A stretch of DNA of 35,686 nt from Limisphaerales bacterium (GCA_003159675.1 PLQC01000025.1:1-35686), one strand, 5' to 3'. Positions 7,937 to 25,587 are shown, numbered from the stretch's first letter. Notes: a model not told the origin generated them from the sequence alone. A program made the numbers and translations.

Positions 7937-9646
7937 TCAGTCGGCGCTCTTGCTCCAGTCCCACGGCTTGCCGGTGTCCCAGAAGGACCAGTCGGGAATT
8001 TTGTCCTTAGCCACGGTCACGGGAGTCTTGAGGAAGTTGCTCGGGGTCTCCTGAAAGTCCGAATCCTGCACGATGGTCGGCGTGATGAAGACAAGCAGAT
8101 TTTGTTTTGTGCGCTGCTTGGAATCGCTGCGAAAGGCATAGCCCAGAACCGGTATATCGCCCAGCAACGGCACCTTGGTGTTCTGGGTGGTGAGATCGTC
8201 CGAAACGAGCCCGCCCAGCACCAATGTATTCCCGCTGGGAATCATGACGCGTGTCTCGATTCTCCGAAGGTCATATTCATCCGCCTGGAACAACTGGCCC
8301 GAGATGGTTTTGGAGATCGTATCCGCGTACCTCGACACTTCCGGCACCACCTTGAGATTGATGAAGCTGTTGGCGGAGATGCGCGGGGTCACGTCGAGGA
8401 TAATGCCCAGGTTGGTGTAAGTGATCTGGGAACCGCCGGTTGTATTTGCGGTGCCTGCGGTGACGTTGATGATCGGGGTGGCGCGGACGACTTCGAGGTG
8501 CGCTGTTTCATTGTCCAACGTGACGGCTCGCGGCTCTGAGATCACCTTGGTGTCGGAATTCTGGTTCAGGAAGGAGACGACGGCATTGACGCCATCCGCG
8601 TTCAGGAAGGCAGTGGCCGGACTGAAGAAGCTGCCCCTGGCCAGGCTGCCAATCACCTGGGGATTGGAAAGAAGGCCGCCGATGATGCCCTGGGACGCCC
8701 CAACCTCTGCTGTCCCCAGGCTAGGATTTGCTGGAATCGCCGCTTGCGCCGGGATGCCCGGCAAGGCATTGTTGCCCACGGTGACGTGTTGCGCGGCGAG
8801 CGTGCCGGCCCAGTTGATGCCTTTCTCCGTGCTGGGGCTTACGACAGTTTCCAGCAATCGCGCTTCGATGAGCACTTGTCTGGTCTGGGTATCGAGGCGC
8901 GCGACCAGTTGATCGACTGCGTCCAATTCCCTTTCCGTGGCGAGTACCACCAATTGGCTGGTGCGCACATCGGCCATCACCTTGCTGCGTTTGTCGATCA
9001 GCGTCGTCTCCACGGCTGCGAGAAGATTGCTTGGGCTGGCGTATTTGAGCTGGATGACCCTCGACTGCAGGGGATCGGGAACCGCGGGATCCTTGATGGT
9101 CACGCGGAAGATTTTTGTTTTGGGATCAGCCACCAACTGCAGGCCATAATTATTGATGAGCGCAGTCAACGCCTGTTCAGCGGTGATGTTTTCCCAGCGG
9201 ATCGAGACGGTGGGTTGGGGGATGGGTCTGCCATCCGGACCCATTTGGCCATAGGAGAGTTTCGGGTCGAGCATGTAGTTTATGTTGGCCTGTCTTGCCA
9301 GATTCTTGATGGCATCGGTCAGGGGCACGTCATCCATGACGATCAGCGGGATGATCGGCGCGGCGGTCGCGTCCGCCACGGTGCTGGTGTCAGTCGCGGC
9401 CTGGACCGCGGCATTGGTTGAAGTGGCGTCGGCGCTCTGGGTGGCGGCATCCGCCGTCGGGGCCGCAGCGTTCGTCAAAGCGGCGCCGGAATTTGCGGCC
9501 GCAACGCCAGCGCTCGTATCGGTTGTCGCGGCGTTGGTTGATGTCGCGGCAGCGTCCGTGGCGGCTAGCGTATAGTTTTGGGCTGACACCGCCACACTAC
9601 CGGCGAGAAGCCCGCTGAACATCATGATGATGATTTTAGCTTTCAT
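7937..9646 (-). CDS. Secretin of type IV pilus / type II secretion (PilQ/GspD-like)
   Basis: The 569-residue protein has a cleavable signal peptide ending near VSAQN (residues 19-23). An Ala/Thr/Ser-rich low-complexity stretch runs to about residue 98. An STN/N0-like domain (IVMDDVPLTDAIKNLARQ) follows, then a secretin_N domain (VIQLKYASPSNLLAAVE) and the C-terminal secretin barrel with VPLLGDIPVLGYAFRS and NLLVFITPTIV. It would form the outer-membrane gate. It lacks the AMIN domains and several N domains of longer PilQ proteins, and no pilotin gene is seen. It is preceded by its own sigma-54-like element at 9707-9722, separate from the pilMNOP unit, and ends at the terminator at 7872-7899. 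Confidence 0.92.
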   Translation of the reverse strand: MKAKIIIMMFSGLLAGSVAVSAQNYTLAATDAAATSTNAATTDTSAGVAAANSGAALTNAAAPTADAATQSADATSTNAAVQAATDTSTVADATAAPIIPLIVMDDVPLTDAIKNLARQANINYMLDPKLSYGQMGPDGRPIPQPTVSIRWENITAEQALTALINNYGLQLVADPKTKIFRVTIKDPAVPDPLQSRVIQLKYASPSNLLAAVETTLIDKRSKVMADVRTSQLVVLATERELDAVDQLVARLDTQTRQVLIEARLLETVVSPSTEKGINWAGTLAAQHVTVGNNALPGIPAQAAIPANPSLGTAEVGASQGIIGGLLSNPQVIGSLARGSFFSPATAFLNADGVNAVVSFLNQNSDTKVISEPRAVTLDNETAHLEVVRATPIINVTAGTANTTGGSQITYTNLGIILDVTPRISANSFINLKVVPEVSRYADTISKTISGQLFQADEYDLRRIETRVMIPSGNTLVLGGLVSDDLTTQNTKVPLLGDIPVLGYAFRSDSKQRTKQNLLVFITPTIVQDSDFQETPSNFLKTPVTVAKDKIPDWSFWDTGKPWDWSKSAD

Positions 9647-9706
9647 GTTTTTGCTCTTGTTCCTGTTTTGCCCAAAAAGGGTGAATCACTTTCCGGGGGC
9701 GTGTTC

Positions 9707-9722
9707 AGCAGCCGAGGTGCCA
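9707..9722 (-). promoter_or_regulatory. Candidate sigma-54 promoter of the secretin gene
   Basis: On the - strand this reads TGGCACCTCGGCTGCT. It matches the -24 box TGGCAC exactly and the -12 box as TGC(T), with the obligatory GG-N10-GC spacing. A transcript would begin near 9696 and give about a 50-base leader. Three similar elements lie before other units of the cluster. Confidence 0.6.
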
Positions 9723-9781
9723 AGGTTGGGCGGGAAAGAATTTTTGGATTTTGGTAAAAAAATCAACTAACGGAGAAAGGG

Positions 9782-9804
9782 TGTTGTCCATCATTGGGAC
9801 AACA
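9782..9804. promoter_or_regulatory. Perfect dyad upstream of secretin promoter
   Basis: TGTTGTCC (9782-9789) and GGACAACA (9797-9804) form an 8-base inverted repeat around seven bases. No T-run follows at once on either strand. Its centre lies about 85 bases upstream of the sigma-54 -12 box, a usual distance for an enhancer-binding activator site. It could instead be a weak processing or termination hairpin after the pilP-like gene, which ends at 9864. Confidence 0.45.
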
Positions 9805-9863
9805 AACACTCTGTGGCGCCTTCGTGCCCGTTGCACGACAGGTCAGTGAGTGTTTTCAGGGCA

Positions 9864-10319
9864 TCAGTCGCGGAGGTGCAGTTCCCGGCGTTCGCCACCG
9901 ACGACCTCAACGACAGCCGATTCTCCCTTGATTTCGATGCAATGGATTCGGACGCGACCGGCGACGGTATTGATCTCATTGGTTTCGCCTTCAGCCATGG
10001 TGCGACCATTGATCATCGCCAGTTTATGATCGGGAGTGCCGCCGATGCCGTTTAGAACAAGTGCTTCGGCCGCCGCGGAAGGGGTTTGTGTGAGAGCCGT
10101 TGAGGCGGCGCCATGAAAGGAATTGGGGAAGAATGGATCACGTCCTTCCTGTGGGGCGGCGGGGATACTGAAAGTGGATTGGGGAATGTCATTCGTTCCG
10201 CTCATTTGCGCGTCGGATTTGCGTTTGATCTCCGGGGGGGCAGCGAGGACGGCCATTATTGCGAAGAACATCACCGCCAGAAGGGACGCACCGGAAACAG
10301 AATGAAATGGGTTTTTCAT
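9864..10319 (-). CDS. PilP/GspC-like periplasmic protein
   Basis: The 151-residue protein has an N-terminal hydrophobic segment (about 10-28) with no lipobox Cys. A linker contains GRDPFFPNSF, typical of PilP-type proteins. The C-terminal HR/PilP beta-domain has LVLNGIGGTPDHKLAMING, then GETNEINTVAGRVRIHCI, then VEVVGGERRELHL. In type IV pilus systems PilP links the PilNO inner-membrane complex with the secretin. Its start overlaps the end of the pilO-like gene as ATGA (10316-10319), and the order pilM-N-O-P is the canonical one. The absence of a lipid-modified Cys brings it closer to GspC-like anchoring. Confidence 0.75.
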   Translation of the reverse strand: MKNPFHSVSGASLLAVMFFAIMAVLAAPPEIKRKSDAQMSGTNDIPQSTFSIPAAPQEGRDPFFPNSFHGAASTALTQTPSAAAEALVLNGIGGTPDHKLAMINGRTMAEGETNEINTVAGRVRIHCIEIKGESAVVEVVGGERRELHLRD

Positions 10320-10915
10320 GGAGTGTTGGCCGGATGGGATCCATCAGGATGGACAAGGCACACGATGTCCATCCTGAATGCCAGCTTGTCTTTTTCCTCC
10401 GGCCCCGACGCTGAAGCTGGAACCAATTCGAGATTCAAAATGCGGGAGGAAGGAAACTGGTTTTCAAAATCGGCGATAAATTTGCCCAGATCATGGTAGT
10501 GCGCAGTTCCGGAGATGGTCATGGTGACCTGCTTGTAGGGAAACTTGGGCAGCAGATTCACGTCCACGGCCATTCCAGCCGAGTCAAATTGTGGAATCTC
10601 GATTTTGTGGCGAAGCTTGAACTTGCGGATGGAATTGACCATGGCGGAATAGAGATCGCCGGAAACCATGTCCTCTTCCTCAGTTGCCAGCGTTTTACTG
10701 ACGGAGAGGAGATCTTCCTCCAATTCTTTGCTGTGCTTGATGGTATCCTGAATTTGCGACAATTTGGTTAACGCCACATTTCGTTGATCGTCGATTTTCT
10801 TCAGGTTCTCCTGCTGGTAACGGATCAGGCTGTACCACAGACCGACCACGACCAGGAGCGTCATCAATGCGACGAGGATGACCTGGTTTCTCTTGTCTTT
10901 GGAAAGCCTGCTCAT
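10316..10915 (-). CDS. pilO: PilO-like inner-membrane assembly protein
   Basis: The 199-residue protein has a short basic N-terminus and one TM helix (about 12-30, VILVALMTLLVVVGLWYSL). A coiled-coil region follows (about 32-80), then a ferredoxin-like fold with FPYKQVTMTISGTAHYHDLG near residue 125, which matches the PilO core (sequence for GTY..L..FL). PilO dimerises with PilN in the inner membrane to form the alignment complex. It overlaps both neighbours by ATGA (10912-10915 and 10316-10319), so the operon is tightly coupled. Confidence 0.85.
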   Translation of the reverse strand: MSRLSKDKRNQVILVALMTLLVVVGLWYSLIRYQQENLKKIDDQRNVALTKLSQIQDTIKHSKELEEDLLSVSKTLATEEEDMVSGDLYSAMVNSIRKFKLRHKIEIPQFDSAGMAVDVNLLPKFPYKQVTMTISGTAHYHDLGKFIADFENQFPSSRILNLELVPASASGPEEKDKLAFRMDIVCLVHPDGSHPANTP

Positions 10916-11580
10916 CTCGTTTTCTCCGGGAAACGGGCTCCAACCGTGAAAAGGACAAACGGTTTTCCGTCCGGACCCGTTTGTGGCGAACCCAGGGCAG
11001 TCAGGCGAAACCCGCCTCCTTTTCCGAGGGCGTACTGGAAATAGGGCGCGCTCGACAAGGCATCCTGATACTTGCTGACCCCGTCGCCTGAAGTGGGGCT
11101 GCTGTCTCTGGCATTGAGTGTCAGGACAATTTTTTCCGTTGTAGTCGCCGGCTTGCCGCTCGAGTGGCCGGTGTCGTCCTTCGGTTTGGTTTCCTCGGTC
11201 ATTGTGTACGACTGATCGATCTTGAGCCGCAGCAACTGGACGTTGTTCACGGTGGTTTTTTGGAGGGCATCGAGGAGATTGCCAACCAGGAAGCGATTGA
11301 CTGCCAATCGATGGAGAGCCTGCAGTTTCTGTTTGTCGTCCTCGATCTTTCTTTGGTTTTCGAGAATCTGGCGATACTCATTGGTGCGCGAGCTGAGATT
11401 GTTCTCAAACCCATTCAAGTCGCCTTTCACAATCATCGTCTTGACCAACAAGGAACTGCTCCAGACCAAAATGAGCATGACGGCAACCACTCCGGCCAGG
11501 ACGAGTCGTTTCACCGGATCGCGGCGGCGCTGCCCTTCAAGGGCCTGAGCATCTGCCAGCAAATTGATGCGGATCGGCAT
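10912..11580 (-). CDS. pilN: PilN-like inner-membrane assembly protein
   Basis: The 222-residue protein starts MPIRINLL, the short cytoplasmic INLL motif that binds PilM. A TM helix follows (about 27-46), then a coiled coil (about 55-90) and a C-terminal fimbrial-assembly fold. Residues 131-148, rich in Lys, Thr and Ser, form an insertion in the periplasmic domain. It starts three bases after the pilM-like stop, consistent with the canonical pilM-N-O order. Confidence 0.88.
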   Translation of the reverse strand: MPIRINLLADAQALEGQRRRDPVKRLVLAGVVAVMLILVWSSSLLVKTMIVKGDLNGFENNLSSRTNEYRQILENQRKIEDDKQKLQALHRLAVNRFLVGNLLDALQKTTVNNVQLLRLKIDQSYTMTEETKPKDDTGHSSGKPATTTEKIVLTLNARDSSPTSGDGVSKYQDALSSAPYFQYALGKGGGFRLTALGSPQTGPDGKPFVLFTVGARFPEKTR

Positions 11581-11583
11581 GAT

Positions 11584-12660
11584 TCAGAGGGCGGTCAATG
11601 CCGCGCCGATTGCGACGGTGAGTTGCGGCGCGATGTGTTCGAGCTCCGCTGTTTGCTCCGGTGACAGCGCCAGCTTCAACGTTGTCGTGGGGTTCCAGGT
11701 CCTGCAGTCTGCCATCAGTTGGCGCCGCAAGGTTTCCACGACAAAGTCTGACCGCGATGAACCGCCCGAGAGGAACACCTGGGACACCGGACGGTCGTGC
11801 TGGTGTTCAAAGAAGTCGAGGGAAGCGCGTAATTCACGGCCGAGAGGAGTGAGCAACGGTTCAAGCTGGCTTTGAACTTCATTCGCCATGCCGATTTTGA
11901 TTCCTTCCGCTTCGGCATAGGTGATGTTCATCGCCTCGGCGAGACCTGCGGTGAGCCGGTCTCCGCCGATGGCGACAACCCGGTTTAAGATCAGGTCCTT
12001 TTCTTTCAGGATCGAGATGGAGGAAGACTTGAAACCAATATCGACGAGGGCCACCGACTCCTTCTCAAAAACCTCCGGCAGCGCCCTCTCGAAGGCATTG
12101 ATGGGGCCAATGACACCGGGCACGATGTGGTCGGGGATGAAACCGGCATTCCTGGCTGCCAGGACGAAATCATCGATCAGTTGGTTCTTTGCGCTGGCCA
12201 CCAGGACCTTTTGCTTTTGCTGGCCGGGGGGGCCTTTTGTCGATTCATTTGGCTTGGATTGCGGTGCCGGCGAGGCGACCTGACAATCGAAAACGTAGCC
12301 GGACATATCCTGCTGCAGATAAACCCTGGAGTTGTTTTTCAAGACCAGACGCATGTCTTCGACGGGCATGGAAGGCATCTCCACGTGTCTGACCAGGGCA
12401 TCCGAAACTCCCAACGTCAGGGTCAGCCATTTGCATTTGCAATCCAACGCATGGCTCACCGCCTTGAGATGTTCGGTGAGCAAATCGACCGGGAGGGTCT
12501 TTTCAAAAATAGGCGCATCCAAGAGAAGATAGCCGCACAGGGCAAAACCATCGCCGCGCCGCTGCATATGGACGGCTTTGGTGGTGCGACCGCCCAGATC
12601 AACTGCCAACATCTGGTCGCGTCTCTTTCGTGCTCCGCTATCCCCGAATGGCAACGCCAT
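11584..12660 (-). CDS. pilM: PilM-like actin-fold assembly ATPase
   Basis: The 358-residue cytoplasmic protein has actin/FtsA-fold nucleotide motifs. Phosphate 1 is LAVDLGGRTTKAV (about residues 18-30), phosphate 2 is ALVDIGFKSSSISIL, and the adenosine motif is VFLSGGSSRSDFV. The sequence VVAIGGDRLTAGLAEAMNITYAEAE is typical of PilM. It would bind ATP and the N-terminus of PilN. It is the first gene of the pilMNOP unit, with a sigma-54-like element at 12755-12770. The ATG at 12660 is used; an internal ATG at 12612 is possible. Confidence 0.9.
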   Translation of the reverse strand: MALPFGDSGARKRRDQMLAVDLGGRTTKAVHMQRRGDGFALCGYLLLDAPIFEKTLPVDLLTEHLKAVSHALDCKCKWLTLTLGVSDALVRHVEMPSMPVEDMRLVLKNNSRVYLQQDMSGYVFDCQVASPAPQSKPNESTKGPPGQQKQKVLVASAKNQLIDDFVLAARNAGFIPDHIVPGVIGPINAFERALPEVFEKESVALVDIGFKSSSISILKEKDLILNRVVAIGGDRLTAGLAEAMNITYAEAEGIKIGMANEVQSQLEPLLTPLGRELRASLDFFEHQHDRPVSQVFLSGGSSRSDFVVETLRRQLMADCRTWNPTTTLKLALSPEQTAELEHIAPQLTVAIGAALTAL

Positions 12661-12754
12661 AGTCGTAGTCGTGTCTTTATCCAGTTAGCAACGTGATTGC
12701 AAGCAGCATCTCACGCGGATGCATCGGTACGAACCTTAAACAAGCAGGTTGCAA

Positions 12755-12770
12755 AGCAGTCGGCGTTCCA
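12755..12770 (-). promoter_or_regulatory. Candidate sigma-54 promoter of the pilMNOP unit
   Basis: On the - strand this reads TGGAACGCCGACTGCT. The -24 box differs from TGGCAC by one base, and GG-N10-GC spacing is kept. It lies in the 179-base gap between the secreted-protein gene (ending at 12840) and pilM (starting at 12660). The leader would be about 84 bases. Confidence 0.5.
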
Positions 12771-12839
12771 TGGCGGCTGACGGCCCTTCCCGGGGCGGGA
12801 ATGTGCCTTACGGAAGCGACAGAGTGTCACCGGGGTGTC

Positions 12840-13490
12840 TCAGCTTTTGTCAGAAAGCGGGGTGATTTCGAGCCTGCCACCTTCGTTCGTACGCAAGCTC
12901 GCCAGCAGCACTCTCAAGACATAGCGGCCGGCGTCGAAGTATTTGGGGCTGGAAATGAGATTGAACTCCATGACTCCGGCTCGCGAGGGAATGAACACGA
13001 TACGCGCTGCTTGTTCCGCTCCGCCGGAGTTGACCCACCGAAGTTCGTAGGCCTGGCCGGCGTGACTCCCGGCGAATTCCGAGGTCTGATCCGTAACGAT
13101 TGCGCCAGGGTACCGGCTGAGAGCGAGGTTGCGCCAGGAATCGGTCCCCGATTGGTCCGACGCGTCGGGCGAAGGATCCATGAAGTGGAACGAGATGAAG
13201 CAGGTGTCATGGGCGTCGGAAAACACCATTTTCTGCGGATCCGACGCATCCACCCGATAACCTTCCGGCACGGTCAGGGCAAATTGATTCGTTCCGAGGG
13301 TCAGGTAAACGCGCCGCACCTGCCTGTCATTTGAGGTTCCGAGGAACTCCTCGTTCCTCAAGGCGACCTGGAGAGGCGGCTTGTTGGTGACGTCCTCCGT
13401 GTCCGCCGGATCCGCGAAGGCGTGGGTAGCGGAAAGGCACAAGCCTGGGAGAATGATTGCCAGCAGATGACTTGCTCTATGGAACGACAT
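12840..13490 (-). CDS. Secreted protein of unknown function in the pilus cluster
   Basis: The 216-residue protein (from the ATG at 13490) has a signal peptide whose h-region is HLLAIILPGLCLSATHAFA, with a likely cleavage after AFA. The mature part is beta-rich with no known motif: YLTLGTNQFALTVPEGYR, then CFISFHFMDP, then YELRWVNSGG. The phrase on fitness of the residues after YLTLGTNQ suggests a PsbP/Mog1-like or similar sandwich fold, but this is a weak impression. The start overlaps the end of the PilX-like gene by 14 bases, so it belongs to the prepilin operon. It may be a periplasmic accessory or adhesin partner of the large pilin. Function is unknown. Confidence 0.75.
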   Translation of the reverse strand: MSFHRASHLLAIILPGLCLSATHAFADPADTEDVTNKPPLQVALRNEEFLGTSNDRQVRRVYLTLGTNQFALTVPEGYRVDASDPQKMVFSDAHDTCFISFHFMDPSPDASDQSGTDSWRNLALSRYPGAIVTDQTSEFAGSHAGQAYELRWVNSGGAEQAARIVFIPSRAGVMEFNLISSPKYFDAGRYVLRVLLASLRTNEGGRLEITPLSDKS

Positions 13491-15336
13491 TATAGTTGAT
13501 TGTTCCAGGAGGGGGGACGGCCCAATTGTATCGCAAGGCCACAAGGGCATTGGGGATGCCCGGAGGGACTTTGGTGGGGTCCGAGAAATTAAGATCGTAG
13601 CTGAATTTCCGGGTGGGCGGTTCGTAGTACGTGCCTGGATTGACAAATTTGCTTGTGGCTCGCGTGCTATTGTACAAATTGATGATGGAGGTATTGAGCC
13701 ACAGCGTGGAACTGCTCCAATCCTCGAGCAGGCGCGGGAGGTTGTGGACGCCGCCGCTGAAATTCATGCTGTCGGTGCCGGTGGAAGGAACGATGCCGGT
13801 GACGATGGCGGCATTCACGGTATCGGCGCTGGCGGCGTTCCAGGCGCTGGCACTGGTGGAAAAGCCGCTGGTAAGGCTGTTGCGATCGTTGAAGCTCGAC
13901 GAGAGAATTGTCAATGCATCAGAAATCAGCGCGCAGGGAACGGTTCCCGCCGAGGTATTGTTGGTGCCGAGAAGGCTGGAGTTTGTCTGATTGTAGTTGC
14001 CCCACACATAGAGCGGGTTGGGGGTGGCGACCGACCATCCCTCGGCTCCGTTGGAAGGAGGTGCGATCCCGTTCGTGAGCCGGACGACGGCGAGCTGCCC
14101 CGCTGTCACCGTGCGGTTGTCCGCGACGTAGAGAATGGTCGGGTAGGTGCCGGAAGTGAACTTCGTATGGCCTGGCCCCATGATGTTCACGTTCGTGCTC
14201 ATCCAGTTTGCATAACTGCCCACATCGATTTGCGTGGTGAGATTGGTTTTATTTTCTCGCCCATCAAAAAAGCGGTTGGTGAGGGTAAGGAAAGGAAGGT
14301 TTGTAGCCAGGATGGCCACATTCGTGCCATACGAGGGTGATTTGTACGGGGTTGGATCGGCGGCGGATACGGACGAGGAGTTGGGCGCCTGCTGGACGAT
14401 ATAATTCACGGTTGTGTTGCTGACCAGCAGAACCACCTGAGCCTGGTTGTAAAGGCGCTGCGATCCCGCCGTTGTCGAGTAGTCGTTCGTGAGGGGCATG
14501 TCGATGATGGAATGTGTGTTCGTCATGGGCAGCGCCAGTTGAAGGGTGGCGATGTTGGTGACGTAATTGGTCGGGGTGCCGGCAAAAGTGGTGTTCCAAC
14601 CGCTGTTGAAATTGTAAGCGTTTCCATAACTGGCGCCGTTGTCGGTGGGTGCTGAAATTGTGCCGGACGCGGTCACCATGGTGTTAAACAGCAGGGTTGC
14701 GCTTGTGCCGACATAAATGTTCGTATTGCAGTGGACGGGCCCGTTCACGGTCATGGTGGCGCACGTGCTGAATTCCAGCAGGCCGTTGTAGAAGATGGCG
14801 TAGGTTGTGAGCGGGACAAGCGCGAGCATCACGTCCTCCTGGCAGGTGCCGATGACCGAGCTGCTTCCATTGCGCCATTGTGCATTCGACATGATGCGAT
14901 AAATTGGGGCGTTGGCAGTGATTCTGCCTGGATAGGCCGCGGGGAGATTGCTCGAATAGATGCCGTTTGTAACCACGTAAGTCGCGTTGTTGTTCCCATT
15001 GCCATCTGAAAACTGAAAATTGCTCCAGAAGGAATCTTCGTTGGGATAACTCGCGCGATACCCGGTCCCCGCTGTCGCCAGATTGTTGGCAACCGTTGCG
15101 GGGCCGCCGCCGGACTGGAAGTCATATTGCATTCGGGCGAACACCTTCTCGACGGCAGCTTCAGCGGCATTTTGACACAGAATAAGCTGGTTGCTGTGGT
15201 TGTTGAGGTTCGCGACGGTATAAGTGCGATTCAAGGTGCTGGCCATGAGCAGCAGACTCACGGCGATGATGACCATCACCATCAAGAGCGCATAGCCGGA
15301 GCGGGTGCAACGTTTGAGGAAAAGTCTCGTTTTCAT
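13477..15336 (-). CDS. Large PilX/GspK-like minor pilin with 570-residue extracellular domain
   Basis: The 619-residue protein has a prepilin signal ending RSG before YALLMVMVIIAVSLLLM. Like PilX and GspK it lacks the Glu at mature position 5. The stem helix continues with NQLILCQNAAEAAVEKVFAR, typical of PilX. After about residue 75 the protein becomes a very long Asn/Thr/Ser-rich beta domain. One part, YNGLLEFSTCATMTVNGPVH with the following residues, resembles a right-handed beta-helix texture. The usual PilX is under 200 residues and GspK about 330, so the extra length suggests a tip or adhesin role. It overlaps the preceding prepilin gene by ATGA (15333-15336) and the next gene by 14 bases. 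The function is inferred from position and stem only. Confidence 0.8.
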   Translation of the reverse strand: MKTRLFLKRCTRSGYALLMVMVIIAVSLLLMASTLNRTYTVANLNNHSNQLILCQNAAEAAVEKVFARMQYDFQSGGGPATVANNLATAGTGYRASYPNEDSFWSNFQFSDGNGNNNATYVVTNGIYSSNLPAAYPGRITANAPIYRIMSNAQWRNGSSSVIGTCQEDVMLALVPLTTYAIFYNGLLEFSTCATMTVNGPVHCNTNIYVGTSATLLFNTMVTASGTISAPTDNGASYGNAYNFNSGWNTTFAGTPTNYVTNIATLQLALPMTNTHSIIDMPLTNDYSTTAGSQRLYNQAQVVLLVSNTTVNYIVQQAPNSSSVSAADPTPYKSPSYGTNVAILATNLPFLTLTNRFFDGRENKTNLTTQIDVGSYANWMSTNVNIMGPGHTKFTSGTYPTILYVADNRTVTAGQLAVVRLTNGIAPPSNGAEGWSVATPNPLYVWGNYNQTNSSLLGTNNTSAGTVPCALISDALTILSSSFNDRNSLTSGFSTSASAWNAASADTVNAAIVTGIVPSTGTDSMNFSGGVHNLPRLLEDWSSSTLWLNTSIINLYNSTRATSKFVNPGTYYEPPTRKFSYDLNFSDPTKVPPGIPNALVALRYNWAVPPPGTINYNVVP

Positions 15337-15986
15337 CGTCCTGGTGGAACATGTGGGGTAACCCTGAATTCCATTTTGTAAAAGTCGTACATGTAGCCGC
15401 TCCCGACCATCGTCAGCGGATATTGGTACTGGAGAAAGCCTAGTGTAAAATGCACCACACGCCTGTCCAACAGGTCGGTGACGGGGTTCCCGTTGAAGTC
15501 CTCGGCGGTGAACGTCAGCGCGCCGCCGTAATAGTTGGTGAGGTTGGAGGCCAGGGTGGTGGCGCCGGCGTCCCCGGTGTGAATGCGCATCAGTTTAGAG
15601 TTGCCCGGGGTGCTGGTATCAAAATAGTAAACGATGTTGGTAGTGTTGTTGGCGACGAGAAAGATTTGGATGGCGGCGCCCTGCTGCAATGAGCCATTGG
15701 AAATCGGGGTAAAAGTGCCTCCTGAATAATTGCCGACACCCCAGATTTGGGCGCTTCGCATGTCGCGCATGATTTGTCCGAAATCCCGACGCGACTGGTC
15801 GCTCGCGCCCAACTTGCTCTCGACAAGCTCGTCCTGTCGCAGGCCGAAGATCTGTCCGTAAACCAGCGCGATGACGACGTAACCAAATACAGCCATCGTG
15901 GTCATCATCTCAACGAGGGTGAGAGCCCGCATCTTTAAAGGATCTCCACCCTCCGCACATTGCCCTTTATTCTGAAGGAGTTTCAT
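15333..15986 (-). CDS. PilW/GspJ-like prepilin
   Basis: The 217-residue protein has a leader ending MRA before LTLVEMMTTMAVFGYVVIAL, with Glu at mature position 5 and Ala rather than Gly at -1; that exchange is frequent in Verrucomicrobia and Planctomycetes. The C-terminal region is beta-rich and ends with YDFYKMEFRVTPHVPPGR. Its size and place between a GspI/PilV-like and a GspK/PilX-like gene suggest the J/W minor pilin. The start at 15986 gives a 20-residue leader; an internal ATG at 15932 would give only MRA. It begins 13 bases after the previous stop. Confidence 0.82.
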   Translation of the reverse strand: MKLLQNKGQCAEGGDPLKMRALTLVEMMTTMAVFGYVVIALVYGQIFGLRQDELVESKLGASDQSRRDFGQIMRDMRSAQIWGVGNYSGGTFTPISNGSLQQGAAIQIFLVANNTTNIVYYFDTSTPGNSKLMRIHTGDAGATTLASNLTNYYGGALTFTAEDFNGNPVTDLLDRRVVHFTLGFLQYQYPLTMVGSGYMYDFYKMEFRVTPHVPPGR

Positions 15987-15999
15987 AAGCGGCCAACTC

Positions 16000-16560
16000 T
16001 TACAGCGTCGAATTGTCCCGATTATCCGGCGCTTCGTAGGTGCAGATGGTGTTGGTATAGAGCCTGGTCGTCGTCCCGGCTCCCGATCCCCAGGTGAACG
16101 GCCAAACCGTGTCCACCCTCACCATTTGCAATTGAACGCCGGTCAACGTGCTCGAACCGGTGTTGTAGTTGAGCATGCGAATGGTGACGTAATTGGTGGC
16201 GGTGACAAAATTTCCTCCCGACGTCGGGAGATCCAGGTAGGTACAGGTGTAACCGGTGTAGGTGTAGTTCGGCGGGTTCGTCGTGAATAGCCGAGAATTG
16301 AGGTTCAAGTTGGTGAAGTCATTCTCGGGTTTCGAAGGATCCCAGACGGCGGCCCGAGCCTGTTCGATTTGTTGGATCGCCAGTGCCTGCGCCGCGAGGG
16401 AATAGCCCGTCCACTGGGCGCGCTTTGTGGATTGCGTATAGGCCATAAACATGCCGCCATAGACGATCGCGACGATGGCGATGGCGATGACCACTTCTGC
16501 CAGTGTGAAGGCAGAGTACTGTCTCCTTGGCTCTAAAGTTTTCGATAAAGTCAGACGCAT
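16000..16560 (-). CDS. PilV/GspI-like prepilin
   Basis: The 186-residue protein has a basic 17-residue leader ending SA before FTLAEVVIAIAIVAIVYGG, with Glu at mature position 5 and Ala at -1. The globular part contains SLAAQALAIQQIEQARAA, the helix continuation common to PilV/GspI proteins, then a beta-rich domain with several Thr and Tyr. It is the first gene of the prepilin operon and has a sigma-54-like element at 16622-16637, about 50 bases before it after the expected start site. It probably nucleates pilus or pseudopilus assembly with the next two genes. Confidence 0.83.
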   Translation of the reverse strand: MRLTLSKTLEPRRQYSAFTLAEVVIAIAIVAIVYGGMFMAYTQSTKRAQWTGYSLAAQALAIQQIEQARAAVWDPSKPENDFTNLNLNSRLFTTNPPNYTYTGYTCTYLDLPTSGGNFVTATNYVTIRMLNYNTGSSTLTGVQLQMVRVDTVWPFTWGSGAGTTTRLYTNTICTYEAPDNRDNSTL

Positions 16561-16854
16561 TGGTTTACGATCAGAAGCAATGGATATTCCAAACTTTTTT
16601 GCTTAATCGAGTTTCTGTTTTAGCATTTCCTCTGCCACGGCTGGGGTTTCGCCAGGTGCCGAGGCCTGGAAAACCGGGATGGCCGGCTCCACAGATACCA
16701 ACGTTAAAAGTCGGTCCTTCGAGGCGTTGAGCGGGAGTTGTATTCTGGCAGATGGGTATTCCAGGTTTCTCGTCAATCGCCCTCCTGTCCTGAATCAGGG
16801 CAATAATGGCAACCTTCTCCACAGATCCGGCAGACTGCTTAAGGCGCGAAATCG
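16561..16854. other. Intergenic region before the prepilin operon
   Basis: This 294-base stretch holds the sigma-54-like element at 16622-16637 and an imperfect dyad CCTGAATCAGG near 16791-16801 that could be an activator site. No convincing coding frame is present. A weak reading frame at 16571-16822 on the - strand was not accepted because it has no conserved features. Confidence 0.45.
16622..16637 (-). promoter_or_regulatory. Candidate sigma-54 promoter of the prepilin operon
   Basis: On the - strand this reads TGGCAGAGGAAATGCT. The TGGCA core and TGCT are kept and GG-N10-GC spacing is exact. The inferred start is near 16611, about 50 bases before the first prepilin ATG at 16560. It matches the secretin element in promoter-to-gene distance. 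Confidence 0.6.
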
Positions 16855-18609
16855 TCAGGGAATCAGGTTTTGAGTCCGTTCCTGGGGATCGGCGACGGGG
16901 TCACCGAGAATCTCATCGAGGTTGTAGTGCTGAAGGGCGAGGCGCACCAGGCGCAAGTTCCGCTCGGTCACAGGGTCCTCTCCGAACATGATCTTCGCGA
17001 CCACAACAGCGATCTTGTCAAATTTTTCGTTCGATTCCTTGTTCGCAATATTATCTGGATGCGAGCCATTGTTGCCGGGCGGCGCAATGAGGGCTCCGAC
17101 GTCCAACGGGAGGTTGTTGGCGTCTGGAACGGTCTCAGACACGTTGCTGGTGCCTGTTTCGGTTGCAGAAGTGGCGATACTGAACGCAGGCGCACCCTCG
17201 GGGCCCGGTTCACTCAAGGGCAACGCGGCAATGGGAATGGTTGCGTCCTGCCCATTCTCCATCGCCGGCTCCATAGGAGGCTGTTCCACCATCGAGGGGG
17301 CGGCAGGTTGTGTCTGACAGACTGCGGTTTGATCGGCCTGCTTTTGCGTCGCGGGGAGTGACGGATTAATTGAGACGTCGGCCGTGGTGTGGTGAGTATC
17401 TGTATGTGGAGTGGAAGTGCGCTGAGATCGATCTCTCAGCAGATGGAGGGTTGCTTTGAGCGCGAGTTCCGAAGGAGACACCGGCTTGGTGATGAAGTCG
17501 TGACCTCCGCTCAGCACGCTTTGTTTGCGATTGTCAAAATTATTGTGGCCGGTGATGAAAATGACGGGTGTCGATTTGCAGTGAGGGATGCGGCGCAGCT
17601 TTTCGCAAAGTTCGAAGCCGGTCATATCGGGCATGTTGATGTCCAGGAAGACCAGGTCGTAATGGTTGGTTTGGAGCAGTTGCAGCGCGGCGAGAGGATC
17701 CTCGACACAATGGGCATCGAACTTGGCACGTTTGAGGGTCGTCACCATCACGTGATTGCAGACGACATCGTCATCGACGGCGAGCACTTTGACCTGGGGC
17801 ATGGGTTCGGCGAGATCCGTTTCGCTGCTGGTCAGCAGGAGGTCCAGGCAGTCCACCGCCTGAGCGATGGTTTGGAGTATCGATGGTGTGACCCAGGAGG
17901 GCTTGACCATGATTTCAGAGAGCAGCGCATCGAAGGCCGCAGTAAGCAATGCGATTCGAGTGCAGCCGACGTTGGCGGCGTTGGCGCTCATGGACCGCAC
18001 GCGCTGATAAAGGTTGGGCAGATGCTGCAGGCTGGCCGGGGATGAAGGCGCCTTGATGTAAGCAAGGCAATGCTCGCGGATTTTCGGAACCTCGGCGAGT
18101 GCCTCGTTCATGAATTCAGCGCATCTGCTCGGGGCCTCTTGGGGAATCGCGGGCGTCTCGGCCTCACTGTTCCCGGTTTGGGCCTGGATCGCGGGAGTGT
18201 CCGTGGGTGGGGCCTCCACCGACCCTCCGGTCGAGGCTGCAGCGAGAAGGTCCTGGATGGTTTGAAGCAGCATCGGGAAGGTGGAATCCGTCTTGACCAG
18301 GTGCCGTGTCAGACCTGTCGCAGTGATGTCCTGGGGCAGTTCACTCATGCGTGCGTTTGAGAAGACTACAACCGGCAGGGATTTCAGTCGCGGATCCGCG
18401 CGCACGAACTTAATGACATCGTCACCATTGAGTTTGGGGAGCATGATGTCGAGCACAACCAGATCGGGTGTGAACTGGGAAAGAGCCTTGAGCGCTTCCA
18501 AACCGTCTTGAGCAGTCTGGAGGTGAAAACCTTCGCGTTCGAGACGATTGCGGTACATCTGCAACGCGACCGGGTCATTCTCGACGAAAAGGATTGTCTT
18601 GACGTTCAT
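16855..18609 (-). CDS. Double-receiver response regulator with degenerate Hpt-like middle
   Basis: The 584-residue protein starts with a receiver domain (1-122): acidic pocket E10/D12, phosphoacceptor D54 in VVLDIMLP, S84 and K106. A helical region (about 160-265) looks like an Hpt domain, but the expected HxxKG is replaced by YQRVRSMSANAANVG, so it has no phosphorylatable His. A second receiver follows (273-395): D279-D281 pocket, D323 in FLDINMPDMTG, T353 and K375 in ITKPVSP. The remainder is disordered, ending with a conserved-looking helix near 525-570. There is no DNA-binding or sigma-54 activation domain. Its place just upstream of the prepilin operon suggests control of pilus activity rather than transcription. 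It has its own sigma-54-like element at 18693-18708. Confidence 0.85.
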   Translation of the reverse strand: MNVKTILFVENDPVALQMYRNRLEREGFHLQTAQDGLEALKALSQFTPDLVVLDIMLPKLNGDDVIKFVRADPRLKSLPVVVFSNARMSELPQDITATGLTRHLVKTDSTFPMLLQTIQDLLAAASTGGSVEAPPTDTPAIQAQTGNSEAETPAIPQEAPSRCAEFMNEALAEVPKIREHCLAYIKAPSSPASLQHLPNLYQRVRSMSANAANVGCTRIALLTAAFDALLSEIMVKPSWVTPSILQTIAQAVDCLDLLLTSSETDLAEPMPQVKVLAVDDDVVCNHVMVTTLKRAKFDAHCVEDPLAALQLLQTNHYDLVFLDINMPDMTGFELCEKLRRIPHCKSTPVIFITGHNNFDNRKQSVLSGGHDFITKPVSPSELALKATLHLLRDRSQRTSTPHTDTHHTTADVSINPSLPATQKQADQTAVCQTQPAAPSMVEQPPMEPAMENGQDATIPIAALPLSEPGPEGAPAFSIATSATETGTSNVSETVPDANNLPLDVGALIAPPGNNGSHPDNIANKESNEKFDKIAVVVAKIMFGEDPVTERNLRLVRLALQHYNLDEILGDPVADPQERTQNLIP

Positions 18610-18930
18610 TCTCGTTTTGCACTTTCAGGCCCAATTCGGGAATCCAAAATCCATTCCAGCACCGCCCGCATACGACTTCCCAAGTCATTGGGAGCACCGT
18701 TTATGCCACACCCTAGTGGAGGGACGGTATGGGATGTCTGCACATTGCGTGGTCGATGCCGGGGGGGTGAACCTCAATCTGTCACGGAGCACAACGCCCG
18801 AGACCCCGGGTGAGGCTCAAAAATGGACATTGCGAAAGTGGATGTGCCCGAATGGGGTCTGCAAGACCCGATGCGGTTTTTCTGCTGCAGCGGCAAATTG
18901 CTTGCGCGGAATGTCCCCTGAGACGGGCAC
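18610..18930. other. Intergenic region upstream of the response regulator
   Basis: This 321-base gap lies between two genes on the - strand. It holds the sigma-54-like element at 18693-18708. No coding frame or clear terminator is seen in the remainder. Confidence 0.5.
18693..18708 (-). promoter_or_regulatory. Candidate sigma-54 promoter of the response regulator
   Basis: On the - strand this reads TGGCATAAACGGTGCT, with the TGGCA core, TGCT and GG-N10-GC spacing. It lies 84 bases before the ATG at 18609, giving a leader of roughly 70 bases. Confidence 0.55.
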
Positions 18931-19551
18931 TCAGCGAGCGTCGTCGTCCAGATGAATGGCGTGGGTGAATTTCATCTTGACCGTTTCACCCACGCGCGCG
19001 AGGAGTGACTTCTTCCTCGGTTTTTGAACGCCACCGATTGGCTCCGCCGCATGACTGCAGATGGGGCAAAGGAACAAAATGGTCCGGCTTCCTTTGCGGT
19101 GGATTCGATGAACACACGGCTCGCACATGACTTCGTGGCAATGGATGCACCGATGGGTGACACGCGCGTGCGGATGACGCGGGCAGACAAGGGATCCATC
19201 CGCCATAACGACGGGGGGGGCCGGTAGTTCCATGTCAACAAATTTGGGAATCGCCACTCTGAACTCGGTGCTTTCGACGGACAATTCGACGTCGCCCAGG
19301 CGGACAATCTGGCCGGCGGACAATCTGGCTTCTCGAACAGGTCTTCCATCCACGAACGTGCCGTTTGTGGACTCCAGATCGCGTATCGTCACGCCTTCCT
19401 CCATCAACACCACTTCACAGTGAAGGCTCGACACGGTCGGATGGGTGATGGTGAAGTCCGTATCCGGGCTGCGGCCAATGCGATTCACCCCCAGTTTGAG
19501 CTCGATCAACCGGTTTTCTATCCCATCCGTTTTGATTAAAAGTCTCGCCAT
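18931..19551 (-). CDS. FHA-domain protein with zinc-finger module
   Basis: The 206-residue protein starts with an FHA domain (about 1-95) carrying the phosphothreonine-binding residues: GR at 26-27, S41-x2-H44 and STNGTFVDG at 61-69. A zinc-binding module follows (C123, H126, H133, C135, C138, C143, C146, C162, C165) with the pattern CPRHP-x4-THRC. It closely resembles the module at residues 95-130 of the propeller protein encoded at 794-3184. The tail is basic. No membrane helix is seen. It would read phosphothreonine signals and may bind a partner through the zinc module. A GGGAGA Shine-Dalgarno lies directly before the ATG at 19551. It starts 112 bases downstream of the ferredoxin gene. 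Confidence 0.88.
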   Translation of the reverse strand: MARLLIKTDGIENRLIELKLGVNRIGRSPDTDFTITHPTVSSLHCEVVLMEEGVTIRDLESTNGTFVDGRPVREARLSAGQIVRLGDVELSVESTEFRVAIPKFVDMELPAPPVVMADGSLVCPRHPHARVTHRCIHCHEVMCEPCVHRIHRKGSRTILFLCPICSHAAEPIGGVQKPRKKSLLARVGETVKMKFTHAIHLDDDAR

Positions 19552-22014: not shown

Positions 22015-23361
22015 TTAAATCATCGGCGAGGTCTGCGATTCCGCGTCCGCCCGTTTTGTGATGCTGAGCCGTGCCACTCGCATCCCCTCCATTTCCTCGA
22101 CGCGCAATTTGCAGGCGCCGACCGTCAGCACATCGCCGACTTTGGGAAAACCGCCAAGCCGTTGGGTGACCCAGCCGCTGGTTGTGGTGATGCCTTCTTC
22201 CTGCAGCGGTTCTCCGGCAAGTTCTTCGAGTTCGTGCAAAGGCAGTGTTCCTGAAGCGTCCCAGGTATTCTCGCCCGTGAGCGCCAACAGAGGTTTCTCC
22301 TGATCGAATTCGTCCTGAATTTGTCCCACCAGTTCCTCGAGGATGTTTTCGAGAGTGACCATGCCGAGCGTGCCGCCGTATTCGTCCACCACGATCGCCA
22401 GATGGAGTTTTCGTTCCAGAAACAGTTGGAGCAACTTCTCCAGCCGGCCCATTTCGGGGACGTAAATCAGCTTTCGCGCAACGGGCAGCAACTCCGCGCC
22501 GGAATGCGCTCGGATCCGCATGGCATACAAATCCTTGATGTGAACGACCCCGAGGCTTTCATCCACGTCGCCGCCCTGGCATAGCGGGAAGCGTGAGTAG
22601 TGAGTTTTCTCGGCAACATCCATGCATTCCGTGAGGCTCGCTTTGGTATCGAGGACCACGATTTCGTGCCTGGGACGCATGGCGTCCCGGACGACCCGTC
22701 GTCGCAGATCGAGCGCGTTGAGGGCGATGCCGCGGCTGAACGCCTGGGCGCCTGGGAATTGTGCGACCGGGGACAGCAGCAACCGCAGTTCCTCCTCCGA
22801 ATGACCGCCCCGGACCTCGGTGGCGGCTTCGATTCCGAGTCGCCGGAGCAACCATTGCGCGGAATGGTTGAGCGCCCAGATGAAAGGGTACGACAGACGG
22901 AAAAACCATTGCAGCGGAGTGGCCACCGCCAGAATTGTCTGCACCGTCTTGCGAATGGCAATCGCCTTGGGGGCCAGTTCGCCGACAACGATGAGCAGGT
23001 AGCTGCTGATGAAGAATCCCACGAAGATGGCGACCGTGCTTTGTGCTTGAGGCGACCCGATTCCGGCAAGCAGGAACAGAGGTCCCAGCAGACGCCGGAA
23101 CACGGGCTGGACGACCACGCCCAGCGCCATGCTCGCGAGCGTGATCCCAAGCTGGGTCGCACCGATGTAGGCGTCAATATTCGCGATGATGCTTCGCGCG
23201 ACTTTGGCGCGGCGGTTTCCCTTGGCGGCCAGGGGATCCAACTGTGTGGCCCGGACTCGGACCAGGGCCAGTTCCGCCGCCACGAAAAACGCGTTCAGCA
23301 GAACGAGCGCGATGACGGCCAGGATTTTCAGGCCATCGTCGGGGAGTTCGTTCCAGTTCAT
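22015..23361 (-). CDS. CNNM/CBS (CorC/HlyC) membrane protein, full length
   Basis: The 448-residue protein has an N-terminal CNNM (DUF21) transmembrane domain (about 1-200) that includes AELALVRVRATQL. Two CBS domains follow (about 220-340; YSRFPLCQGG and AIVVDEYGGTLGMVTLENIL), then a C-terminal transporter-associated CorC_HlyC domain (about 355-435). The family includes proteins for magnesium and cobalt export and is often annotated as hemolysin-like. Last of three tandem paralogues; the start follows the previous stop by one base, so the set is an operon. Confidence 0.92.
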   Translation of the reverse strand: MNWNELPDDGLKILAVIALVLLNAFFVAAELALVRVRATQLDPLAAKGNRRAKVARSIIANIDAYIGATQLGITLASMALGVVVQPVFRRLLGPLFLLAGIGSPQAQSTVAIFVGFFISSYLLIVVGELAPKAIAIRKTVQTILAVATPLQWFFRLSYPFIWALNHSAQWLLRRLGIEAATEVRGGHSEEELRLLLSPVAQFPGAQAFSRGIALNALDLRRRVVRDAMRPRHEIVVLDTKASLTECMDVAEKTHYSRFPLCQGGDVDESLGVVHIKDLYAMRIRAHSGAELLPVARKLIYVPEMGRLEKLLQLFLERKLHLAIVVDEYGGTLGMVTLENILEELVGQIQDEFDQEKPLLALTGENTWDASGTLPLHELEELAGEPLQEEGITTTSGWVTQRLGGFPKVGDVLTVGACKLRVEEMEGMRVARLSITKRADAESQTSPMI

Positions 23362-23362
23362 G

Positions 23363-24358
23363 TCAGAGGTTCACTTCGCCAAAAACGAGTTTCAAAATGT
23401 CCTGCAGGGTGACGATTCCGATCTCGCGCCGGTCCCGGCCGAGCACCACCGCCAAACGCTGTCCGCTGCGTTGCATGCGGCGCAACGCCACTTCGAGCCG
23501 CAGGTCTTCGTCGAGGTAGAGCGCCGGTCGGACATAGTCCGCCGCCGTCTTGTTCACATCCAGATCCGGCTGGTAAAGCAGGGTCGCCATGCTGGCCAGG
23601 CCCGCGATGCGGCGCCGCTGGTCCCGCATTTCCCACACGGGCAACCGTGTGAAACGCAGGGAACGGCTCATGGCCATCATCTCGCGGACCGGGGTTTGCA
23701 TCGTCACGGTCGCGACGATGGAAATGGGTTTGGTGATCTGCCGCACCGTCCGGCTCTGCAGATCCAGCACGCGGTTGATGATGGCGCGCTCTTCGGTCGT
23801 GAACGCCCTTCCCGATTCCTGCATGACGAATCGCAGTTCCTCACGGTTTCCGAACAGGTGGCCGGTGAACGCCCTGACGCCGGTCCAATGAAGCAGCACG
23901 GCGGAAACACCTTGCACGAGCCAGACCAACGGTCGCAGCGCCAGGTGGATCAATCGGAATGGCCGCGCCAGGGTCACGCACAGCCGGTTGGGGTAAATCC
24001 TGAAAAGCATCTTCGGCAGCAAATCGAAAAATGCGTAGAAGAAAAAAACAATGACCGAGAATGCCGCCACGAACCAGAAGCGCCGGCTATGGAGCGAATC
24101 GTACAGAACGACGACAGCCGTCCCCAGAATGATGAAATTGGCCACCGTGTTGCCGACGAGGATCGTCCACAGAAAGTCCTCGGGATTCTCCAGATAACCG
24201 TGGAGCAACTCGGCGGAATGTCGTCCGGCACGCATCTGTTGTCGGATGCGCAACCGGCTCAACGCAAACACGCCCGCCTCCATGCCCGAGAGCAGGAAGG
24301 AAAGCGCCAGGCATGCCGAGAATACCAGCCAGTTGAATGCTTCCGCGCCCATGTTCAT
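23363..24358 (-). CDS. CNNM/CBS membrane protein lacking the CorC domain
   Basis: The 331-residue protein has a CNNM transmembrane domain (about 1-175) starting AFNWLVFSACLALSFLLSG and a CBS pair (about 195-325). It stops at VTLQDILKLVFGEVNL, where the CorC_HlyC domain would start, so that domain is absent. The ATG at 24358 overlaps the previous stop as ATGA, which decides the start; upstream frame is not conserved in type. Middle member of the three-gene operon. It may pair with its neighbours as a heteromer, which is a guess. Confidence 0.9.
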   Translation of the reverse strand: MNMGAEAFNWLVFSACLALSFLLSGMEAGVFALSRLRIRQQMRAGRHSAELLHGYLENPEDFLWTILVGNTVANFIILGTAVVVLYDSLHSRRFWFVAAFSVIVFFFYAFFDLLPKMLFRIYPNRLCVTLARPFRLIHLALRPLVWLVQGVSAVLLHWTGVRAFTGHLFGNREELRFVMQESGRAFTTEERAIINRVLDLQSRTVRQITKPISIVATVTMQTPVREMMAMSRSLRFTRLPVWEMRDQRRRIAGLASMATLLYQPDLDVNKTAADYVRPALYLDEDLRLEVALRRMQRSGQRLAVVLGRDRREIGIVTLQDILKLVFGEVNL

Positions 24359-25587
24359 GTGATCCGTTCCACCAGCACCTCGCGCACACGGCGGTCGTCG
24401 GCGACTTGCGCCGTCAGTTTCAGCCCTCCAAACGCCGCCGACTCGCCTGCGGCCGGCACCCGGCTGCACAAAGTCATCAGCAGCCCGCCCATCGTTTCCA
24501 CTTCCGGCATGTCGCCCAGCGGCGGATATTCCCGGCGGAAATCATCCAGCCGCATCGTGCCGTTGACCCGCCAGCGCCCCGGTCCGAGTTGTTCCACCAC
24601 GAAACCCTCCGATTCGACTTCGTCGCGGATCTTGCCGACGAGTTCCTCCAGGATATCCTCCGTCGTCACCAGCCCGGCAGTGCCGCCGAACTCATCCAGC
24701 ACGATGGCCATGCCGCGCTGCTGGCGCTGCAGACTCTTCAACAACTGCAGCAGATTCATCGATTCGGGCACACAAGAGGGGAACTCGATGGCATCGGCCA
24801 GATCGATTTGCGGGTCCAGCAACAGGGCGCGGGTGTTCAGGATGCCGACGATGGTGTCCAGGGTTTCGTCGTAAATCGGCAGGCGGCGGTGTTTGTATTT
24901 GCGCGCTGCGGCGATCATCTCATCGATTGACAAATCGTCGGATATGGCAGCCATCTGGGAGCGGGCTTTCATCACTTCCTTCGCCGTGCGCCGGTCGAGG
25001 GTGATGACCTGCAGAATGATTTCCTTTTCGGACTGGGCAAGTGTCCCCTGCTGATACGCCATTTCCAGCAACTCCTGGTATTCCTCGTCGGTCAAGCCCG
25101 GTGATGGCTGGGGGGGGCGTGGCGCCAGGGAGGCAAGGATGGCCCTGTTGATTCCCTGCGCGGCTCCGCGCATCGGAAGGCTGAATTTTTCGAGGAACAT
25201 CAGCGGGCGCGCCACGCGTATCGACCATTGCTCCGGCTTCCGCACCGCAAGTGTTTTGGGCAGGACTTCACATCCGAAAAGAGTCAGCGCGAGCAGGCCG
25301 AGGATCGTCGGAATGGTGGGCCAGCGATCATGCAAGGCCATCCAAAAGGCGACTGCGAGCATCGCGGCACTCGCGAACGTGTTGCCCAACACCATGGTGG
25401 CGAGCAGATCCTGTGGATCCGCGAGCAGCCGCGCCACAATGCCTCCCGAGCGCGGGTCGCGATCCGCCAATTGGCGCACCTGCCATTGGCTGAGGGAAAA
25501 GAGCGCCGTTTCCGCGAGCGCGAAGAAGAAGCTCGCCCCGGCGGAGACCAGAACTATCACGATAGCCGCTATCGCCGTCGGCCCCAT
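24355..25587 (-). CDS. CNNM/CBS (CorC/HlyC) membrane protein, full length
   Basis: The 410-residue protein has the CNNM domain (about 1-165, FFFALAETALFSLSQWQVRQ), a CBS pair (about 205-325, with AIVLDEFGGTAGLVTTEDIL) and a C-terminal CorC_HlyC domain (about 335-408). It is the first gene of the three-gene set. The gap of 180 bases to the PPK2 gene upstream shows no clear promoter. Confidence 0.92.
   Translation of the reverse strand: MGPTAIAAIVIVLVSAGASFFFALAETALFSLSQWQVRQLADRDPRSGGIVARLLADPQDLLATMVLGNTFASAAMLAVAFWMALHDRWPTIPTILGLLALTLFGCEVLPKTLAVRKPEQWSIRVARPLMFLEKFSLPMRGAAQGINRAILASLAPRPPQPSPGLTDEEYQELLEMAYQQGTLAQSEKEIILQVITLDRRTAKEVMKARSQMAAISDDLSIDEMIAAARKYKHRRLPIYDETLDTIVGILNTRALLLDPQIDLADAIEFPSCVPESMNLLQLLKSLQRQQRGMAIVLDEFGGTAGLVTTEDILEELVGKIRDEVESEGFVVEQLGPGRWRVNGTMRLDDFRREYPPLGDMPEVETMGGLLMTLCSRVPAAGESAAFGGLKLTAQVADDRRVREVLVERIT

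Follow-up and report, generated by a model that had tools for sequence, protein, structure and literature searches.

The pilus-like cluster and its RpoN-type elements

The window, by which we mean the whole stretch of 35,686 nucleotides that was analyzed (Limisphaerales bacterium, GCA_003159675.1, PLQC01000025.1:1-35686), carries on its - strand the genes of a pilus-like machine, arranged as a secretin gene, a pilMNOP unit, a prepilin unit and the gene of a double-receiver protein, with 16-base elements of the type used by RpoN (sigma-54) ahead of each of them (Table 1). We consider it very likely that these elements are RpoN promoters, served by an activator of the NtrC/PilR type at an upstream dyad, and that the pil units are switched jointly through them.

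Membership of the type IV pilus assembly group (pilMNOPQ) is indicated by PilM (the family that we take to be COG4972), by the secretin and by the conserved gene order. Relatives were sampled through PilM orthologues, found in most of the ~146 genomes of the same order, from which 80 pil loci were extracted (Verrucomicrobiota, Limisphaerales-like). The order pilM-N-O-P-secretin is kept in nearly all of these loci, and the prepilin unit lies beside pilM in a few, with its gene order retained in L087, L088, L092 and L095 and partly in L078. The pil proteins of the window are distant members of their families, since their NCBIfam scores fall below the curated cut-offs. In place of pilus formation, the machine may have a role like that of a type II secretion system (T2SS). 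Neither a DNA-binding domain nor an RpoN-activator domain was found in the double-receiver protein.

Table 1. Genes and predicted regulatory elements of the pilus-like cluster (window coordinates)
Feature	Coordinates	Strand	Sequence or basis
Secretin gene (PilQ/GspD-like)	7937..9646	-	PF00263, E=1.1e-45
Predicted -24/-12 (RpoN) promoter, secretin gene	9707..9722	-	TGGCACCTCGGCTGCT; exact pattern match, top matrix score of the window
Dyad, predicted enhancer (upstream activating sequence) for the secretin promoter, located 62 bases ahead of its -24 element	9785..9801	-	TGTCCCAATGATGGACA; 10/10 match
pilP-position gene	9864..10319	-	Synteny in relatives; no family match
pilO-position gene	10316..10915	-	Weak PilO/T2SSM matches, E=0.003; synteny
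pilN-position gene	10912..11580	-	Gene order pilM-N-O-P-secretin in relatives; no significant Pfam match
pilM-like gene	11584..12660	-	PF11104, E=4.7e-23, above Pfam cut-off; TIGR01175, 93 bits, below cut-off of 133
Predicted -24/-12 promoter, pilMNOP unit	12755..12770	-	TGGAACGCCGACTGCT; exact pattern match, matrix rank 3
Remainder of prepilin unit: 15333-15986 (weak prepilin-like), 13477-15336, 12840-13490	12840..15986	-	Order beside pilM in relatives
Prepilin-like gene with N-methylation motif, first of unit	16000..16560	-	PF07963, E=4.5e-5
Fifth match, alternative or decoy site, 15 bases before the prepilin ATG	16576..16591	-	TGGAATATCCATTGCT; exact pattern match, matrix rank 6
Predicted -24/-12 promoter, prepilin unit, upstream copy	16622..16637	-	TGGCAGAGGAAATGCT; exact pattern match, matrix rank 5
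Dyad, predicted enhancer of the prepilin promoter	16786..16802	-	TGCCCTGATTCAGGACA; 10/10 match
Double-receiver protein gene (response regulator)	16855..18609	-	PF00072, two stretches
Candidate -24/-12 promoter, response-regulator gene	18693..18708	-	TGGCATAAACGGTGCT; exact pattern match, matrix rank 4

The window contains five sequences that match the pattern TGG(A/C)A-N7-TGCT exactly. All are on the - strand and inside 9707-18708, and they keep the GG-N10-GC spacing with TGG and TGC boxes. Four of them had been located in a preliminary description of this DNA, which placed them 60-95 bases ahead of start codons; they are found where it put them, and the distances measured are 60 (secretin), 94 (pilM), 61 (prepilin) and 83 bases (response regulator). 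The same description assigned exactly one element to each transcription unit, which has to be corrected, because the prepilin unit has two. Transcription from the start predicted for the 16576 copy would give a leader of just ~5 nt, so that the copy at 16622 is the likelier prepilin promoter; the predicted transcript starts fall near 9696, 12744, 16611 and 18682.

The general RpoN consensus is TGGCACG-N4-TTGCW, and a weight matrix built from it, approximate and not fitted to the window, was used to score all window positions on both strands. The five elements hold ranks 1, 3, 4, 5 and 6; rank 2, at position 2100 on the + strand, is intragenic. Scores above 12 bits were taken as strong sites. 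Eight matches in the window exceed this threshold. Five of them are correctly oriented and at most 150 bp upstream of a start; such positions account for 3.5% of the space searched (binomial p ~3e-6, a value that is only descriptive because the region had been picked in the preliminary description).

Conservation of the elements in related genomes

Tests of conservation are free of this weakness, since they were made in other genomes. Strong RpoN sites stand ahead of pilM in 32 of the 80 loci of relatives, ahead of the secretin gene in 19 of 62 and ahead of the prepilin gene in 5 of 7; on the opposite strand the counts are 3 of 80, 1 of 62 and 0. Regions inside the operon, which served as a further control, have few such sites (5/73 upstream of pilN and 0/72 upstream of pilO), and shuffled upstream sequences have them in 0-2% of cases. 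Position 16 is T in 53 of the 59 sites, whereas the matrix favors A; this T is therefore information that comes from the sequences and not from the matrix. Among the fetched loci of relatives there is no orthologue of the double-receiver protein, so that these results bear on the secretin, pilMNOP and prepilin sites.

The element extends to a gene outside the window. On contig C45 of the genome from which the window comes (hereafter the source genome, G000, covered here through pattern searches and selected stretches), the element TGGAATAGAGTCTGCT stands 82 bases ahead of pilC. Of 29 relatives, 25 carry a strong site before pilC (consensus TGGAAY-R-N4-Y-TGCT); it lies at roughly -50 to -120, and its flanks are unrelated. 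Altering the spacer by one to three bases (six variants) reduces the counts from 25 to 0-2 at pilC, from 32 to 0-1 at pilM, from 19 to 0-5 at the secretin gene and from 5 to 0 at the prepilin gene. Sites are kept at orthologous genes (secretin, pilM, prepilin and pilC) while the flanks diverge.

Homologues close to the pilC of the source genome (up to 84% identity) occur in records assigned to Limisphaerales, Limisphaera, Pedosphaera and 'Verrucomicrobia subdivision 3', and pilC elements are also seen in records labeled Chthoniobacterales or Spartobacteria. No such element precedes pilC in the proteobacterial or planctomycete pilC loci examined. Because pilC promoters also occur in the Chthoniobacterales-labeled records, control by RpoN of the assembly scaffold and the secretin, beyond the pilin, may be an old trait in the phylum.

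The sigma factor itself is encoded in the source genome (G000:C8:26382; PF04552, E=3e-59) and in 136 of the 146 genomes of the order, most of those without rpoN being incomplete. Use of the absence of rpoN as a natural test was dropped, since almost all genomes of the order carry the gene and most of the exceptions are incomplete.

An enhancer-like dyad linked to the RpoN sites

An alignment of the regions ahead of pilC in relatives shows a 17-base dyad, TGTCC-N7-GGRCA, upstream of the -24 box. It was read by eye in these promoters, with the copies in the window seen simultaneously, and then tested on other promoters of the relatives; matches were scored over 10 fixed positions, and 9 or 10 of 10 were counted as present in relatives. 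Alignment widens the dyad of the secretin promoter to TTGTCC-N7-GGACAA. The only two 10/10 copies of TGTCC-N7-GGACA in the window precede the predicted secretin and prepilin RpoN promoters, and the secretin copy stands at the distance that is standard in relatives, in which the dyad starts 78-81 bases from the secretin -24 box in 12 of 16 cases. Among the relatives, secretin upstream regions contain the dyad in 15 of the 19 cases having an RpoN site but in only 2 of the 43 without one; for pilM the corresponding figures are 13 of 35 and 4 of 44, and in shuffled sequences the dyad occurs in ~3%.

The 4.1 Mb source genome has 17 exact copies of the dyad. Of the fifteen that were fetched, only the two in the window have a TGG/TGCT RpoN site in the next 320 bases downstream; one other copy has a weaker GGG/TGCA match downstream. 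A less perfect dyad (8/10) precedes pilC in the source genome; it stands 92 bases ahead of the RpoN site, a distance common to other pilC and pilM dyads. Across the 146 genomes, the dyad combined with TGG-N9-TGCT gives ~50 matches, as against ~17 for the backward control. Thirty loci with the combined signature were read, and the non-coding ones include those at the secretin gene, pilM, pilC, two prepilin-like genes and some other membrane proteins. In four loci of relatives (L300, L320, L321 and L322) the dyad and the RpoN box stand before genes for small or single-pass membrane proteins, possible further members of the regulon. On contig C86 of the source genome (G000:C86:51709-51724; L045), an RpoN-type site lies 92 bases before a prepilin-like gene; as this site has no dyad, we have left that prepilin out of the regulon.

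The dyad is most likely a binding site for an activator, that is, a predicted enhancer. Since the evidence consists of sequence, the dyad might instead belong to a repressor or to some unrelated factor, and the 16-base element could likewise be bound by a regulator other than RpoN. We regard such an assignment as very improbable, because the element fits the RpoN consensus TGGCAC-N5-7-TTGCT, as given in a published survey (PMC12316311), with strict spacing, and because the dyad is enriched only where an RpoN site occurs.

Probable joint control by RpoN

The assignment of the elements to RpoN is backed by the rpoN gene of the genome, by conservation measured against antisense, in-operon and spacer controls, and by the linked dyad. 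Because matching RpoN sites and a paired upstream dyad are both conserved in relatives, the pilus-like machine is probably turned on as one set. We infer transcription from the sites, binding of the activator to the dyad and common control, and the steps would be as follows. RpoN-polymerase would sit at TGG-N9-TGCT and form a closed complex at -24/-12, as is established for the family; an ATPase of the NtrC/PilR type, bound upstream to the 17-base dyad TTGTCC-N7-GGACAA, would remodel and open this complex. A single activator would in this way switch on the pilMNOP scaffold, the secretin, the prepilin unit and the distant pilC, and the adjacent double-receiver protein would be switched on with the pil units.

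Several observations weigh against this reading. The bare pattern is not enriched in the source genome, with 71 matches compared with 80 for the control, which is the same pattern read backwards, and a stricter pattern is likewise not enriched across the genome (20 matches compared with 17). More than half of the relatives lack a strong site before pilM or the secretin gene; hence control may have been gained or lost within the order, or else the matrix fails to recognize variants. In the window, no good dyad stands within 220 bases of the pilM promoter or of the response-regulator promoter; these two may have a degenerate site, depend on an activator bound elsewhere or respond to a second activator. 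The pilB and pilT genes, on contig C127 of the same genome, have no strong RpoN site upstream, and control does not, therefore, cover every pilus gene. Finally, 14 genomes of the order, chosen since no orthologue of the activator encoded next to pilC on C45 had been found in them, have only activators 41-50% identical to it.

The first of these points bears on whether a short pattern, singled out by eye in a cluster chosen beforehand, has recurred here by chance. The preliminary description judged chance recurrence at these places unlikely, which stands locally, given the share of top matches that fall at promoter positions. One of the grounds that it had named for giving up the proposal nevertheless applies to the genome as a whole, although 5 of the 71 matches fall in 9 kb of the window. 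The bare pattern alone is for this reason weak evidence, and the case rests on the conservation tests and the linked dyad. Chance is contradicted by the dyad and by dozens of other genomes, in which the sites are conserved as judged against controls for strand, position and spacer, and we consider it extremely improbable as an explanation.

With regard to its reach, the preliminary description envisaged control of the whole assembly set, which goes too far. The pilC gene on another contig does carry the promoter, but strong sites are lacking at pilB and pilT. The locus concerned (G000:C127:4544-10599; L147) has a pilB-like gene, pilT, a second pilB-like gene and a pilC-like gene, followed by several prepilin genes, with the motor genes devoid of RpoN sites.

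Candidate activators

The source genome encodes 13 strong RpoN activators, all on contigs other than that of the window, in agreement with the preliminary description, which had noted that the activator is not in the window and pointed to rpoN and PilR/NtrC-type genes elsewhere. The activator of the pil units is probably one of these 13. By position, the leading candidate is the PilR-type protein encoded directly after pilC on C45, a protein of 490 amino acids with receiver, sigma-54 interaction and Fis-type helix-turn-helix domains and a GAFTGA motif. The two genes form an apparent operon (G000:C45:617-3578; L156) behind an RpoN promoter of the pil type. PilR stands downstream of pilC in known genomes, and it is the position beside pilC, together with similarity, that makes the C45 activator PilR-like: among the 13, it is the closest to the activator found downstream of pilC in delta-proteobacterial loci. 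The pair is kept in about a dozen of 30 pilC loci of the order, as well as in two further Verrucomicrobia records, in which the activator is 51% and 42% identical to the C45 protein.

These features, and the RpoN promoter of the pilC unit, would fit a scheme in which the C45 protein is the cognate activator and reinforces its own production in a loop through that promoter. We regard this as possible but rather doubtful. In most of the 14 genomes with only 41-50% identical activators, sites are present at pilC, pilM or the secretin gene, and some have the dyad; no PilS kinase gene adjoins the C45 activator, the order being pilC, activator, aldolase-like gene; and the dyad of the pilC in the source genome reaches only 8/10. 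As the sole and universal cognate activator the C45 protein was rejected, being absent from the 14 genomes, several of which keep both promoters and dyad. Because the C45-type gene is missing from some site-bearing genomes, another widely conserved activator is needed.

A different conserved activator, of the C87 or C7 type, might bind the dyad and control the pil units, a proposal that we advance tentatively and hold to be about as open to doubt as to belief, if slightly more so. Genes of the C87 type are found on the pil loci of six relatives (in four of them downstream of, and convergent to, the secretin gene) and on the pil contig of one more, and among the genomes without a C45-type activator, ten have C87-type orthologues (70-86%) and three have C7-type orthologues (78-83%). 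The C87 protein is also the most NtrC-like of those scanned, at 508 bits, which is below the cut-off of 558.6; NtrC binding sites are 17-base dyads. Against this, four of the loci with a C87-type gene beside the secretin gene have no good promoters before pilM and the secretin gene, and in the source genome neither the C87 nor the C7 activator gene has a dyad ahead of it.

Two other leads to the activator were set aside. No activator gene was found to have a dyad ahead of it that might point to self-control, and the only activator genes adjoining the pil cluster are of the C87 type, in few relatives, most of which are without good sites. It is conceivable, and with the same reserve as for the C87 or C7 type, that a dedicated enhancer and an RpoN activator other than the pilC-linked PilR orthologue coordinate the whole assembly complex across this Verrucomicrobiota order; the regulon would then have persisted whether the PilR gene was retained, relocated or lost.

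Relation to known systems

In Pseudomonas, Myxococcus and Geobacter it is established that RpoN controls pilA by way of PilR (PMC6058289, PMC2725144). The PilS-PilR/RpoN systems of Pseudomonas aeruginosa, Myxococcus xanthus and Geobacter sulfurreducens have in common with the one predicted here an RpoN promoter, an NtrC-type activator next to pilC and targets among the pilus genes; PilR sites contain TGT/GTCT elements (PMC6058289). Their established target is the pilin gene, whereas the predicted targets here are pilMNOP, the secretin gene, pilC and the prepilin unit; moreover, the PilR-type gene here has no kinase beside it and is absent where some genomes have kept the sites.

In Geobacter, predicted PilR/RpoN sites precede pilus and flagellum genes (survey cited in PMC6058289), and in Desulfovibrio the activator DVU2114 binds ahead of pilus genes, mainly those of a Tad-type pilus (PMC3333781). 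Both cases tie an RpoN activator to pilus assembly genes, in another phylum, and the available parts of these reports describe no fixed dyad of the kind found here. RpoN regulon surveys, which share with our findings the control of surface structures by RpoN, report an enrichment of COG groups of T2SS/pilus proteins, among them COG4972, in Myxococcia (PMC12316311, PMC3162934); for Verrucomicrobiota (Opitutia), the text available from the 2025 survey gives motility, nitrogen fixation and transport, and not pilus assembly, as RpoN targets (PMC12316311).

A full-text literature search on RpoN and type IV pili in Verrucomicrobia returned no paper that deals with this regulon. That RpoN can control pili is already known; what is new is the greater breadth of the predicted pilus regulon, in an order that has been little studied, and its own conserved enhancer. 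Verrucomicrobiota of the Limisphaerales type are known mainly from metagenomes, and the dyad together with the RpoN box is a signature of the regulon that can be read from DNA alone. From this signature, membership of the pilus-like machine can be predicted, also for genes on other contigs (those of prepilins and of small membrane proteins), and the search for the activator becomes a direct binding experiment.

Other RpoN-type sites and neighboring genes

A kinase-activator gene pair on contig C166 (G000:C166:2082-5073; L160) is divergent to the gene of a LysM protein, with an RpoN site, TGGCACCTGTGCTGCT, at 2706. This site adjoins a different inverted repeat, CTGTAAACAGGCCTGTTTA, and probably represents a separate RpoN regulon. 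On contig C13 (G000:C13:3558-3573; L022) the RpoN-type site TGGCATTGCCGATGCT lies 81 bases ahead of a gene for Hsp70/DnaK; in Bacteroidota and Planctomycetota, chaperones are reported to be under the control of RpoN.

Within the window, a single protein (794-3184) combines a B-box-type zinc finger with PQQ-like repeats, which is unusual for bacteria. Also unusual for bacteria is an FHA protein (18931-19551) with a Cys/His-rich stretch of comparable appearance in its second half. Further along, three consecutive genes for transporters of the CNNM/CorC type occupy 22015-25587 on the - strand.

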